Source: Mangrovimonas sp. ST2L15 (GTDB lineage Bacteria > Bacteroidota > Bacteroidia > Flavobacteriales > Flavobacteriaceae). From it: a stretch of 64,000 nucleotides of DNA. Below, piece by piece: positions 38,728-43,379 of the stretch. A program made the translations under genes and the position numbers. Below the pieces are notes generated by a model. That model was not told the origin of the DNA. It did no database searches and saw only the letters and a list, made by a program, of their open reading frames with translations. Positions within the stretch are counted from its first letter, which is position 1. Each line of letters opens with the position of its first letter. The DNA is taken from positions 62,001 to 126,000 of the forward strand of contig NZ_LBIQ01000052.1 of the NCBI RefSeq assembly GCF_001280515.1. Reading direction: 5' to 3'.

Positions 38728-39768
38728 ATGGAACAAAAAAAGCAAGTATGTGAAAATGTCTTAGATTTAGTAGGTAACACACCGATCATTAAGCTAAAAA
38801 ACATGACATCTTCATTCAAGGGAAACTATTATGCAAAAGTAGAAGCTTTTAATCCCGGTCACTCCTCAAAAGATAGAATAGCACTTTACATTATTGAACA
38901 AGCCGAGAAAAAGGGAATTCTTAAACCTGGCGACACCATTATTGAAACTACGTCTGGTAATACAGGATTTAGTATTGCAATGGTTAGTATCATCAAAGGT
39001 TACGAATGTATTTTGGCGGTGAGTTCAAAATCTTCGGCTGATAAGATTGATATGCTGAAAGCTATGGGTGCTAAGGTTTATGTTTGCCCGGCTCATGTAA
39101 GTGCAGATGACCCAAGATCATACTATCAGGTGGCGAAGAGATTACATGAAGAAATTAAAGGTTCTGTATATATCAATCAATATTTTAATGAGTTGAATAT
39201 TGATGCACACTACCAATCAACTGGTCCAGAAATTTGGAATCAAATGAATGGTGAAATCACCCATTTGGTAGCATGCAGTGGTACCGGTGGAACCATTTCT
39301 GGTACAGCAAGATTTTTAAAGGAAATGAATCCTAATATTAAAGTCATTGGAGTTGATGCCTTTGGTTCTGTTATTAAAAAGTATCATGAAACCAAAGAAT
39401 TTGATGAAAACGAAATTTATCCTTACCGCATTGAAGGTTTAGGGAAAAATTTAATTCCTTCTGCAACTGATTTTGATGCGATTGATGAATTTATCAAAGT
39501 AACCGATCAAGAAAGTGCCCATACAGCTAGAGAAATAGCCCATAAAGAAGGTTTGTTTGTAGGATATACTTCTGGAGCAGCAATGCAAGCTATCAAACAG
39601 CTTAATGAAGAAGGAGAGTTTAAGGAAGGGGATGAAGTAGTTGTTATATTCCCAGACCATGGGTCGAGATATATGAGTAAAGTTTATAGTGATCAATGGA
39701 TGAGTGATCAAGGATTTTTTGATACTGAAAATGAAGAAGCTGCTCAAAGCATTCAATATGTAAAATAA
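38728..39768 (+). CDS. PLP-dependent cysteine synthase family protein (candidate cysteate synthase)
   Basis: A 346-residue fold-type II PLP enzyme of the cysteine synthase/cystathionine beta-synthase family. The PLP lysine is K49 in [12 protein letters not shown] (family usually NPGGSVKDR), the substrate loop is ETTSGNTGF (about 74-82) and the phosphate loop [11 protein letters not shown]. No C-terminal CBS domains. The next gene encodes an alpha-oxoamine synthase, and published work on capnine biosynthesis pairs a cysteine-synthase-like cysteate synthase with a cysteate acyltransferase of exactly that type. I therefore favour cysteate synthase, but cysteine synthase or a CBS-like role cannot be excluded from sequence. 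The altered GHSS in the lysine loop is compatible with a changed substrate. Confidence 0.85.
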
Positions 39769-39790
39769 ATTACCTTTACTACATAAAAAT

Positions 39791-39830
39791 AAAGCCGTTC
39801 TAAACAATGAAATTAGAGCGGCTTTGTTGT
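39791..39830 (+). terminator. Hairpin terminator after the cysteine-synthase-like gene
   Basis: A 13-bp stem (AAAGCCGTTCTAA with TTAGAGCGGCTTT, one wobble) around nine bases. The T-tract after it is broken (TTTGTTGTT), so read-through into the next gene is possible. Confidence 0.65.
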
Positions 39831-39875
39831 TAACAAGAGTTCATAAAAATATTATGCAAAATTCATTTAAATATA

Positions 39876-39895
39876 TACATTTGCATGATATGCAA
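39876..39895 (+). promoter_or_regulatory. -7 element with an overlapping inverted repeat upstream of the oxoamine synthase gene
   Basis: TACATTTG (39876-39883) fits TAnnTTTG. TTGCAT-GAT-ATGCAA (39881-39895) is an inverted repeat that begins inside the -7 element and covers the likely transcription start, 19 bases before the ATG. An additional ATGCAA lies at 39854-39859. The placement suggests an operator. Confidence 0.5.
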
Positions 39896-39914
39896 TTTTG
39901 ATTATAGCTAAACT

Positions 39915-41174
39915 ATGAGAGATTTATTTGATAAGATTTACAGGGATAAAGGACCGTTAGGAAAATGGGCTTCTCAAGCAGAGGGATATTTCGTATTCCC
40001 AAAATTGGAGGGTCAAATTTCTAACAGAATGAAGTTTCAGGGTAAAGATGTTATCACCTGGAGTATTAATGATTATTTGGGATTAGCAAATCATCCAGAG
40101 GTAAGAAAAGTTGATGCCGAGGCAGGAATTGAATATGGTTCTGCCTACCCAATGGGAGCCAGAATGATGTCTGGACATACAGATTTACATGAAAAGCTTC
40201 AAAAAGAATTAGCAGCATTTGTAAGTAAAGAAGCTGCATATCTTTTGAATTTTGGTTATCAAGGAATGGTTTCCACTATTGACGCTTTGGTTTCTAAAGA
40301 TGATATTATTGTATATGATGTAGATGCTCATGCCTGTATTATTGATGGCGTTAGACTTCATATGGGTAAACGTTTTACTTATAAGCACAATGATGTTGAA
40401 AGTCTGGAAAAGAACCTAGAAAGAGCTACTAAAATGGCAGAACAAACAGGGGGAGGTATCCTTGTGATTTCTGAAGGTGTTTTTGGTATGCGTGGTGAAC
40501 AAGGAAGATTGAAGGAGATTGTTGAGCTTAAAAAGAAATTCAAGTTTAGATTCTTGGTAGATGATGCGCACGGATTTGGTACTTTAGGTAAAACCGGTGC
40601 TGGAGCAGGTGAGGAGCAAGGTGTACAAGATGGTATTGATGTGTATTTTGCAACCTTTGCAAAATCTTTGGCAAGTACTGGAGCTTTTATTGCTGCCGAT
40701 CAAGAAATCATCGATTATTTAAAATACAATTTACGTTCTCAAATGTTTGCTAAATCATTGCAAATGCAATTGGTTAAAGGAGCTTTAAAGCGTTTGGATA
40801 TGCTTAAAACCATGCCTGAGCTTAAAAACAAGCTTTGGGAAAACGTAAATGCACTTCAAAATGGATTGAGAGATCGCGGTTTTGATTTGGGTACGACACA
40901 AAGTTGTGTGACTCCAGTTTATCTAAAAGGAAGCATTCCTGAGGCAATGGCTTTAGTAAAGGATCTTCGTGAAAACTACGGTATTTTCTGTTCAATCGTA
41001 GTGTATCCAGTTATACCAAAGGGATTAATTCTATTACGTTTGATTCCTACGGCAACACATACATTAGAAGATGTTGAGGAGACCTTAAATGCGTTTTCAG
41101 CAATTAGGGATAGACTTGAAAACGGTACATACAAAAGACTTTCAGCGGCTGTATCTGCAGCTATGGGAGAGTAA
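39915..41174 (+). CDS. Alpha-oxoamine synthase family PLP enzyme (candidate cysteate fatty-acyltransferase/SPT-like)
   Basis: A 419-residue fold-type I enzyme of the serine palmitoyltransferase/AONS/KBL family, which decarboxylatively condenses an amino acid with acyl-CoA or acyl-ACP. The cofactor region is DDAHGFGTLGKTGAG and the PLP lysine lies in FATFAKSLASTGAF (about residue 249). LLNFGYQGMVSTIDAL and DVDAHACIIDGVRLH are family blocks. The N-terminal GYFVFPKLEG and the lack of a biotin-gene context separate it from BioF. Placed after a cysteine-synthase-like gene, it best fits the cysteate acyltransferase of capnine/sulfonolipid synthesis; serine palmitoyltransferase for sphingolipids is the main alternative. 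It has its own promoter and a strong terminator. Confidence 0.87.
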   Translation: MRDLFDKIYRDKGPLGKWASQAEGYFVFPKLEGQISNRMKFQGKDVITWSINDYLGLANHPEVRKVDAEAGIEYGSAYPMGARMMSGHTDLHEKLQKELAAFVSKEAAYLLNFGYQGMVSTIDALVSKDDIIVYDVDAHACIIDGVRLHMGKRFTYKHNDVESLEKNLERATKMAEQTGGGILVISEGVFGMRGEQGRLKEIVELKKKFKFRFLVDDAHGFGTLGKTGAGAGEEQGVQDGIDVYFATFAKSLASTGAFIAADQEIIDYLKYNLRSQMFAKSLQMQLVKGALKRLDMLKTMPELKNKLWENVNALQNGLRDRGFDLGTTQSCVTPVYLKGSIPEAMALVKDLRENYGIFCSIVVYPVIPKGLILLRLIPTATHTLEDVEETLNAFSAIRDRLENGTYKRLSAAVSAAMGE

Positions 41175-41197
41175 ATGATATAGAGTATTTCATAAAA

Positions 41198-41228
41198 AAA
41201 ACCAGCTTGAAAAAGCTGGTTTTTATAT
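41198..41228. terminator. Bidirectional terminator
   Basis: An 11-bp perfect stem (AAAACCAGCTT/AAGCTGGTTTT) with a GAAA tetraloop and T-runs on both strands, between the oxoamine synthase gene and the convergent acyltransferase gene. Confidence 0.93.
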
Positions 41229-41235
41229 TTGTAGT

Positions 41236-42360
41236 TTAAAGACTTTTCTTAAATGTTTTTCTACGCTTAATCACTTCACTACCTGAATCCTTCCAAATTT
41301 GTTGTTCGGCAGTGTTGTTTGCCAATTCTGGTAACCTAATACAATTTACAACTCCTTTAATCTTAAAAGTTTGATAGAATTCATGAAAGACTACAGCATG
41401 AGCAGCCTTATTCTGATATTCTGGATCAACACCTATTAAATAAAGCAAAAGTGTTTCGGTTTCTTTTTTGGCTTTTAACAACTTAAGAAAGCCTAGAGGC
41501 CATAATTTCCCATTGATTTCTTGAAGTGCTTTCGAGAAAGATGGTAAAGCAACTCCAAAGGCTATCAAACGTTCATCTTTGTCAAAAACAAATTTGATAT
41601 ATTCTGGATTTACAAAGTTGATAAATTTCTTCTTTAAATAGGTGCGTTCTTTGGCGCTGATAGGAACATAAGATGGTAGATCCCCAAAAGAGCGATCCAA
41701 CAGGGCAAACATGTCATCAATATGCGGAATGATTTCCTTGGTTTTATAAAAGTTTCTCGGTTTATATCCATATCGAGTGACGATGGCATTATATGCTTTT
41801 AGGAATCTAGAATTAATTAGGGACTCCAATTTAAATTTGCTCTCTACATATTCCTTTTCCTCTAAATAACCCAATTTACCAAAATGTTCAATATAATAGG
41901 GGTGGTTATACCATGTAGCCATGGTACCTATATGGTCATATCCAAAGGTCAAAGCTCCAGCTTTGTCCAAGTTGGAAAATCCGAGCGGCCCTTCAATAAA
42001 GTCTAAGTTATTTTCTCTACCTATTTCTTCAGCTTGATCCAATAAGGCTTTTGAAACTTCGAGGTCATCAATGAAGTCCATCCAACCAAAACGCATCCGT
42101 TTAATCTGTTGTTCATTGATTTCAATCCAATTGATTAACGCTGCAATACGTCCAACCACCTCACCATTTTTATAAGCGAGAAATAATTGCGCTTCAGCAT
42201 TTTCAAAAACTGGATTTTTATCCTGATTGAAAGTGGTCATTTCCTCAGCAATCAAAGGTGGTACCCAGTATTTGGAACCTTGATATATTTTGAATGGGAA
42301 GGTTACAAATTCCTTAAGTTCCTTCTTGTTGGAAACTTTTTTTAACGTCACATTACTCAT
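41236..42360 (-). CDS. GNAT-superfamily N-acyltransferase-like protein
   Basis: A 374-residue cytoplasmic protein with a GNAT-like layout. The N-terminal block YWVPPLIAEEMTTF followed by NPVFENAEAQLFLAYKNGEV and VGRIAALINW is the signature of a family I remember near bacterial sphingolipid genes, including the group from which the bacterial ceramide synthase was described. EGPLGFSNLDKAG and the later LYLIGVDPEYQNKAAHAVVF fit an acyl-CoA binding core. Because it converges on the alpha-oxoamine synthase gene, it may add the amide-linked acyl chain to capnine or a sphingoid base. That role is inference; many members are annotated only as hypothetical. Confidence 0.75.
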   Translation of the reverse strand: MSNVTLKKVSNKKELKEFVTFPFKIYQGSKYWVPPLIAEEMTTFNQDKNPVFENAEAQLFLAYKNGEVVGRIAALINWIEINEQQIKRMRFGWMDFIDDLEVSKALLDQAEEIGRENNLDFIEGPLGFSNLDKAGALTFGYDHIGTMATWYNHPYYIEHFGKLGYLEEKEYVESKFKLESLINSRFLKAYNAIVTRYGYKPRNFYKTKEIIPHIDDMFALLDRSFGDLPSYVPISAKERTYLKKKFINFVNPEYIKFVFDKDERLIAFGVALPSFSKALQEINGKLWPLGFLKLLKAKKETETLLLYLIGVDPEYQNKAAHAVVFHEFYQTFKIKGVVNCIRLPELANNTAEQQIWKDSGSEVIKRRKTFKKSL

Positions 42361-42374
42361 AAGGCACTTTTAGT

Positions 42375-43379
42375 CTAACTATCAAAATCGACGTCTTTTT
42401 GTTTTTTTCTATTCTGCTTACGCTGTCTTTTCTTTTCTTTTTTATTCTCTCCTCGAGAATTCATTTCTCTTTCCAATTCTTCTTCAGCAGAATTAGCATT
42501 GTCTATTTTCTTGTCTACATGGAAATCCAAGCGGTATGAGGCCCCTAAAGTTGCTCCAAAAACAGAGGGCGTGTCTTTTGTGTTTAAGGTAACGCCAGCA
42601 TCCAATTGGAAGTTTTTACTCCAAAGATAAGCACCCCCAAAACGGAATAAGTTATCAGCATAGAAATCACTTTTGATTCCTTGTGTTTCACCAAATGCCA
42701 CCCACTGGTCTGTTATAGACTTGGTTAAGGTTAATATATAGGAAAAATCATTTTGATCGGTTCCGATGCGGTCTAAAATAAAATTAGTTACAAACACCCA
42801 GCCTCCAGCTAAGTTGTTTTGCGTCGCCAGCATAACTTTGGGACTAAATCCTTCAACGCCATAATCCGTAAAAGGGTTGTCTTTGGTGTCAAAGTTAGCG
42901 CCTACATAAACAGCAACGGCAGGAATTAAATTTTTCCATTTGAAGCTATGGTTTGCTTTCCAGCTATAAATATTTGGTTTTTCTTCTTCGGAGTTCTTGT
43001 AGGGATCATACACCAAATATTTAGCACCTATTGTTAAAGTTTTAAAATTTGAGAATCTGTCATCTTCTGCCAAATTATTAGAATATGTTCTCTTGGTTGA
43101 TTGAAAGGTACCTTCGACATTTATTTCTAAAGGAGACCATAACAAACCATATCTAGCTGCAAAATCAAGTCCAAAACTATTGTCTTTTCTATTGGCTAAA
43201 TTGTGTTTTTCAGTAAGCATGTAGGGACCAGCTTCAAATTGGAGAACATTGGTGCCAACAGCAAAGGCGCTTTTTGAAACTCCCGGTCTGTTGGAGTTTA
43301 TAACCTCCGTATATTGGGAAAATCCATTCAAGCAGGCAAAAAAGGTAAGTGCAGATAATAAGGGCTTTATAGCTTTCAT
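42375..43379 (-). CDS. Outer-membrane transporter-like barrel (phenol MetA-pathway family)
   Basis: A 334-residue exported protein with signal peptide (MKAIKPLLSALTFFACLNGFS). It starts the mature chain with NSNRPGVSKSAFAVGTNVLQ, a pattern shared with the family linked to the meta-pathway of phenol degradation (PF13557), then beta strands spaced as in a barrel (SFGLDFAARYGLLWSPLEIN, TLGASYRLDFHV). The C-terminal tail is unusual: about 40 strongly basic and acidic residues (NSRGENKKEKKRQRKQNRKK) after the last strand. It lies 14 bases upstream in transcription of the acyltransferase gene, so the two form an operon. Ligand unknown. Confidence 0.78.
   Translation of the reverse strand: MKAIKPLLSALTFFACLNGFSQYTEVINSNRPGVSKSAFAVGTNVLQFEAGPYMLTEKHNLANRKDNSFGLDFAARYGLLWSPLEINVEGTFQSTKRTYSNNLAEDDRFSNFKTLTIGAKYLVYDPYKNSEEEKPNIYSWKANHSFKWKNLIPAVAVYVGANFDTKDNPFTDYGVEGFSPKVMLATQNNLAGGWVFVTNFILDRIGTDQNDFSYILTLTKSITDQWVAFGETQGIKSDFYADNLFRFGGAYLWSKNFQLDAGVTLNTKDTPSVFGATLGASYRLDFHVDKKIDNANSAEEELEREMNSRGENKKEKKRQRKQNRKKQKDVDFDS

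Follow-up and report, generated by a model that had tools for sequence, protein, structure and literature searches.

Sulfonolipids have been linked to gliding motility, inflammation and developmental signalling (PMC11211663; this paper and the others given by PMC number are cited from excerpts). Genes for their synthesis are described in Capnocytophaga ochracea and Ornithobacterium rhinotracheale as CapA/CapB(/CapC) (PMC10191378, PMC12927429). The consecutive accessions of CapA and CapB in C. ochracea suggest neighbouring genes (PMC12927429), as is the case in the locus presented here, at positions 38728-42360 of a stretch of 64,000 nucleotides (the window) from Mangrovimonas sp. ST2L15. With a pair of the same two enzyme kinds and, convergent to it, a GNAT protein, it is probably a sulfonolipid locus of this Flavobacteriaceae bacterium in which the GNAT protein N-acylates capnine. 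The first two steps show no essential difference from the C. ochracea/O. rhinotracheale pathway, and there is no reductase gene in the window locus.

For N-acylation, the nearest described proteins are those of the CerS/bCerS family, with CC_1154 of Caulobacter (CCNA_01212 in PMC10865984), YghO of Escherichia coli and BF9343_4218 of Bacteroides fragilis, the last being used as a reference CerS in PMC10865984. CC_1154 is needed for dihydroceramide in Caulobacter (PMC11324152, PMC9386255). In PMC9386255, yghO and CC_1154 are placed under one gene name, aca, an acyl-CoA N-acyltransferase of ceramide synthesis, with the role of CC_1154 based on Caulobacter mutants and that of yghO given only as a possibility.

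The features of the locus are as follows.

38728..39768, plus strand: CapA, of the cysteate synthase family, a pyridoxal phosphate (PLP) enzyme with the cysteine-synthase fold; 346 aa; lysine loop NPGHSSKDR with Lys48.
39915..41174, plus strand: CFAT/CapB/SulA, of the cysteate fatty acyltransferase (CFAT) family; 419 aa; PLP Lys250 and SulA-type Lys280.
41197..41224, no strand: 12-bp stem with T/A tails in the gap between CFAT and the GNAT gene; may serve both as a terminator.
41236..42360, minus strand: CerS/bCerS/YghO-family protein with a tandem GNAT fold, proposed to N-acylate capnine (or 3-ketocapnine); 374 aa; convergent.
42375..43379, minus strand: PF13557 outer-membrane barrel-like protein; a conserved neighbour, not claimed for the pathway.

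The three open reading frames (ORFs) named in a first-pass annotation of this DNA are intact, and the GNAT-type one is convergent with the other two, as described there. The barrel-like gene and the GNAT gene share a strand, with the former 14 bp upstream. The stem is the only one found in a 5-kb stretch, against 3.1 expected in shuffles, and is not significant by itself.

Cysteate synthase and cysteate fatty acyltransferase

The CapA ORF matches the PALP family of Pfam (E 2e-80) and scores 653 bits (E 6e-197) with NF053679, the curated NCBIfam equivalog model for cysteate synthase, at a cut-off of 600; the nearest solved chain by sequence is 9k2p (510 bits). It belongs to the cysteate synthase family, as had been proposed for this cysteine-synthase-like PLP enzyme, and presumably has that activity. 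The first-pass annotation had also set the loop NPGHSSKDR apart from the housekeeping type. The loop is present, at Lys48, and the CysM of the same genome has NPGGSVKDR. Among 111 CapA-like ORFs of more than 60% identity (taken from overlapping loci, with some genes counted twice), 94 have NPGHS, then S, T, A or N, then KDR, and 49 have exactly NPGHSSKDR. A CapA paralogue of 53-54% identity in that genome (L005 1498-2481, contig C29) carries the loop NPGNSVKDR and reaches 477 bits on the cysteate synthase model, below the cut-off of 600.

In a sample of 395 genomes of the phylum, 41 of them from the family of the window, CapA over the cut-off occurs in 41/41 genomes of that family and in 0/354 of the others. 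CFAT (at 1e-100) is present in 139/395 genomes, versus 41/395 for CapA over the cut-off. Since a CapA passing the model is absent from many CFAT holders, these may obtain cysteate otherwise. Alistipes, according to the excerpted review PMC10191378, has cysteate without a CapA homologue in use, whereas CapA adjoins CFAT in the window. In all 23 genomes of one genus of the window's family (g2), CapA is present and does not adjoin CFAT (it is on another contig or far away, as read by hand), so that the pair is split.

The CFAT ORF matches Aminotran_1_2 of Pfam (E 9e-39). Over its full length it resembles the solved "Cysteate-C-fatty acyltransferase" 28eh (720.6 bits, E 5e-216); the match to Alistipes finegoldii SulA (7u7h, 573 bits) covers nearly all of it. 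Its best match to a serine palmitoyltransferase (SPT) among the solved chains has 245 bits, and it scores 301 bits on the NCBIfam SPT model NF047600 (cut-off 640) and 277 on the BioF model (cut-off 426). In a tree of 40 hand-chosen oxoamine synthase rows (with 7u7h and 8guh as aligned chain parts, no BioF row, and long branches for the Kbl row and four others), the ORF falls within a 21-row clade, support 100/100, together with 7u7h and 28eh and apart from SPT and Kbl. The residues aligned to SulA are Asn52, His139, Lys250, Lys280 and Arg375, so that the active-site residues are common to both, including the Lys (281 in SulA) found at the Ala position of SPT (PMC9304779). That position is Lys in 21/21 rows of the CFAT clade, Ala in 18/18 SPT rows and Asn in the Kbl row. 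Outside the SPT clade and without the Ala, the ORF does not qualify as an SPT. The reading of the oxoamine synthase as a cysteate acyltransferase, and not as SPT or BioF, agrees with the tree, BioF being judged by model score. By family, 39915-41174 is a cysteate fatty acyltransferase, and a preference for cysteate over serine is to be expected.

The genome of the window has 3.56 Mb and is 99.99% complete. One further oxoamine synthase was found in it, Kbl (glycine C-acetyltransferase; 698 bits, cut-off 493), and no match to SPT (NF047600 at 1e-120). Cysteine synthesis is covered there, because a separate CysM, over its cut-off, stands beside a serine acetyltransferase elsewhere in the genome; the second, housekeeping cysteine synthase that the first-pass annotation suggested looking for does exist.

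CapA and CFAT are new members of already known enzyme families, and we hold with high confidence that they are enzymes of the 3-ketocapnine pathway. CapA would make L-cysteate from O-phosphoserine, sulfite being the co-substrate of cysteate synthase. CFAT would then condense cysteate with an acyl thioester, with release of CO2, into 3-ketocapnine (in the studied A. finegoldii enzyme, the donor is acyl-ACP, with ACP the acyl carrier protein). An unlinked reductase would turn 3-ketocapnine into capnine, and the CerS-family GNAT protein would add the second acyl chain to the amine of capnine, giving N-acylcapnine, a lipid of the sulfobacin type. We infer these activities, as well as capnine being the substrate of the GNAT protein and reduction preceding acylation.

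The GNAT protein and its family

The GNAT protein has a weak Pfam match to GNAT (21.8 bits, cut-off 20.7), no NCBIfam match at 0.001 and, among PDB sequences, a best E of 0.34. The model built from a 49-row alignment (predicted local distance difference test, pLDDT, 93.4; predicted template modelling score, pTM, 0.90) has a tandem GNAT fold. Its best VIA-align match is MAB_4324 (Z 22.9, 304 residues, 3.4 Å), and further matches are a glucosamine N-acetyltransferase (Z 22.2) and an N-myristoyltransferase (Z 14.8). The substrate is not deducible from the fold alone.

By sequence, the protein aligns with E. coli YghO over its full length (25% identity, E 1.1e-32, residues 4-374) and with a Sphingomonas protein over residues 3-316 (29%, E 4e-33). 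Through the homology to YghO, it is a member of the CerS/bCerS/YghO family; the first-pass annotation, which spoke of a GNAT-type family found near sphingolipid genes, was right and is made precise in this way. In the E. coli record, yghO shares its neighbourhood with lptF/lptG and with genes for an SPT-like protein, an acyl carrier protein, an acyl-AMP ligase and a protein of the epimerase/dehydratase type. The homologue in Sphingomonas parapaucimobilis has a similar set of neighbours (SPT-like, acyl carrier protein, reductase-like, lptF/lptG), without the ligase. The comparison with CerS/bCerS was made through YghO alone. The window protein differs from that group in belonging to a clade other than the main SPT-linked one, and in lacking the linkage to SPT that is usual for the family, since its neighbour is CFAT and no SPT was found.

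In the genome counts, SPT stands for a match to NF047600 at 1e-120 (298/395 genomes, only 17/395 passing the curated cut-off, all 17 from the class of the window). In 12/17 genomes whose SPT passes the cut-off, the gene that immediately follows SPT on its strand is a family member, and the same holds for 13 of 14 further SPT genomes (25/31 in total, counted by hand); 12/17 is the fairer number, because the linkage in some of the 14 was known before they were selected. A tree of 104 family members has three clades. Clade 1 is almost wholly SPT-linked, a distant clade has no condensing enzyme within 1.5 kb, and the remaining one holds the window protein and other members from its family of bacteria. 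Two rows of this last clade (G033 and G383; L056, L057) stand directly behind SPT. Four genomes of a Bacteroidaceae-like group (f11), with SPT and no CFAT, have only window-clade members (three by tree, G238 by score); one of these shares 89% identity with a protein from Bacteroides finegoldii that scores best, at 548 bits, with the window-clade profile. The third, distant clade (L116-L135) is found, by score, in 33/40 genomes with CFAT and no SPT outside the window's family.

A GNAT match (1e-5) occurs in 369/379 genomes with CFAT or SPT versus 9/16 without either (Fisher p 6e-7, uncorrected for kinship; counts by hand, with several of the 16 being fragmented assemblies), and in 39/41 genomes of the window's family. 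A full-length family member is present in 38/43 genomes with CFAT and no SPT that were searched (of 81 such in the sample). In the genome of the window, the GNAT candidate is single-copy and keeps all 17 positions that are conserved at 90% across three compared groups. Taken together with what is weighed below, a role as capnine N-acyltransferase is, judged on sequence, moderately favoured for this protein.

Synteny, gene loss and other readings

Within the window's family, the GNAT gene lies at most 1 kb from CFAT in 25/39 genomes having it and at most 7 kb in 29/39 (by hand). As a control, the 20-kb stretch round CFAT was compared in 20 hand-chosen relatives (one stretch being only 12 kb). 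The GNAT gene and the outer-membrane gene are each present in 13/20, CapA and an oligopeptidase B-like gene each in 15/20, and three unrelated downstream genes in 12, 12 and 10. The adjacency of GNAT and CFAT is ordinary block synteny. Synteny was rejected as support for the GNAT role, unrelated neighbours being equally retained, and because of this control the N-acyltransferase proposal rests on family identity, not on position.

Retention was followed in relatives of a Psychroflexus CFAT, the best 80 out of 590, a sample close to that genus rather than a random one. Sequence sufficed in 75 of them; 50 of these carry the GNAT gene in the stretch around CFAT, always convergent to it and in 42 cases within 1 kb. 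Among 24 of the remaining 25, searched genome-wide, 15 have one copy elsewhere (e.g., Kordia, Leeuwenhoekiella, Dokdonia, Nonlabens). The search gave no copy in 9/24, namely Psychroflexus, Mesonia, Gramella, Salegentibacter, Gillisia and four other metagenome assemblies. Leeuwenhoekiella parthenopeia is tentatively reported with sulfobacin A (PMC9859067, from an excerpt), in line with the GNAT gene retained in L. polynyae. For Salegentibacter and Psychroflexus, no report of sulfonolipids was found in the open-access literature. Among the five GNAT-less genera, the Gillisia genome is a metagenome assembly and completeness is known for Psychroflexus alone: the Psychroflexus curvus genome, 100% complete, is without the gene, and a second genome of that group (G355, g4) likewise. 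The block downstream of CFAT lacks only the GNAT gene in Mesonia, Gramella, Salegentibacter and Gillisia and is intact in other respects. A quick tree based on three proteins (CapA, CFAT and the peptidase) puts the five genera in two groups inside one 24-row set; the absence may have a single origin.

Three observations stand beside these. In one of the 50, Lacinutrix neustonica (L185 / G421), stops break the GNAT gene close to CFAT into two pieces, which may reflect a further loss or a sequencing fault. The outer-membrane neighbour was dropped as a partner of GNAT, as it persists in four genera lacking the GNAT gene. Among the neighbours of window-clade members outside the window's family (10 proteins scanned), no common theme was found (topoisomerase subunit B, TruA, UvrB, EamA).

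Several results weigh against capnine N-acylation by the GNAT protein. Beside the block synteny, there are five Flavobacteriaceae genera that have CFAT and in which no CerS-family member was found. No reductase gene was identified in the locus or located in the genome. YghO, the closest named relative compared, is itself a predicted N-acyltransferase (PMC9386255, as excerpted). SPT-only genomes, too, have members of the window protein's clade, next to a second paralogue that is linked to SPT, and 24/40 genomes with CFAT and no SPT outside the window's family have, by score, only the third, distant group. The window protein has changed unusually fast: five relatives share 61-74% identity with one another and 52-55% with it, without a matching acceleration in CapA, CFAT or the peptidase. 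It has another residue at 46 positions on which at least 85% of its family agree; at one of them, 222, Asp replaces the Asn present in 85-100% of each group. This copy may be changing specificity or losing constraint.

In a rival reading, CapA and CFAT are as described and the GNAT protein acylates another amine-bearing lipid or a small molecule, its position being due to an unbroken gene block. The synteny control agrees with it, as does the convergent orientation, which implies no operon; so do the occurrence of the same clade beside an SPT-linked paralogue in SPT-only genomes and, in four genera that still have CFAT, the clean loss of the gene from a block intact in other respects. Against it stand the need for CC_1154 in dihydroceramide formation (PMC11324152, PMC9386255), the E. 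coli and Sphingomonas copies near SPT-like genes, the two window-clade members directly downstream of SPT, and the 15/24 genomes that, without the CFAT-side gene, retain one copy elsewhere. We consider another substrate rather unlikely.

The same enzymes could also act in another order, the GNAT protein acylating 3-ketocapnine in the cytoplasm with reduction last. Such an order has been proposed for Caulobacter bCerS/CerR from the build-up of keto-ceramide and from protein location (PMC11087976), and the window protein shares its family with Caulobacter bCerS. On the other side, reductases are reported to act on a 3-ketocapnine-like compound in C. gleum and A. finegoldii (PMC11211663), and CapC is so described in the review PMC10191378, both as excerpted; this order appears unlikely. 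In one genome (G077, L090 9605-11603), at a distance of about 7 kb from CFAT, a GNAT-family gene is overlapped by one for a short-chain dehydrogenase. As a general reductase for the pathway this dehydrogenase was rejected, with only a weak match in the genome of the window and none in 4/10 genomes.

A housekeeping pair, of cysteine synthase with SPT, BioF or Kbl, has shared folds in its favour, the SPT, Kbl and BioF models giving at most 301 bits on the CFAT ORF, far under their cut-offs; with the CapA cut-off passed, the CFAT clade and Lys280, and CysM and Kbl elsewhere in the genome, this very improbable reading is already refuted at the level of sequence.

Related loci and significance

CFAT-like genes occur in other settings as well. 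The Legionella lytica plasmid NZ_CP071528.1 (L161 7986-12857) encodes a CFAT-like oxoamine synthase (44%) that has the SulA-type Lys. After it come, in this order, a 970-aa protein combining an acyl-AMP ligase part with a phosphosulfolactate synthase (ComA) part (277 bits, cut-off 280) and a phosphosulfolactate phosphatase-like gene. This cluster is a possible separate sulfonolipid route outside Bacteroidota. In three further genomes (G179, G219, G254), CFAT-like matches of 46-49% lie inside open frames of 1120-1171 aa, in which the condensing enzyme may be fused to further domains.

The pathway published in the open-access literature has genes for three of four steps and names none for N-acylation; no published gene for a sulfonolipid N-acyltransferase was found there, and key papers outside it may say more. 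The GNAT protein is a concrete candidate for this step. If the candidate is right, sulfonolipid and bacterial sphingolipid synthesis share one acyltransferase family. A more tentative proposal, which we regard as possible and somewhat doubtful, is that the clade of the window protein constitutes the missing sulfonolipid N-acyltransferase, with the CerS family going along with the condensing enzyme present in each cell, and that the five genera without it have lost the gene and carry free capnine. These are named genera in which nature seems to have already deleted the candidate. If the proposal holds, they would have free capnine, a sulfonic analogue of sphingosine-1-phosphate, as the sulfonolipid of their membranes, unless an unrelated enzyme has replaced the GNAT protein.

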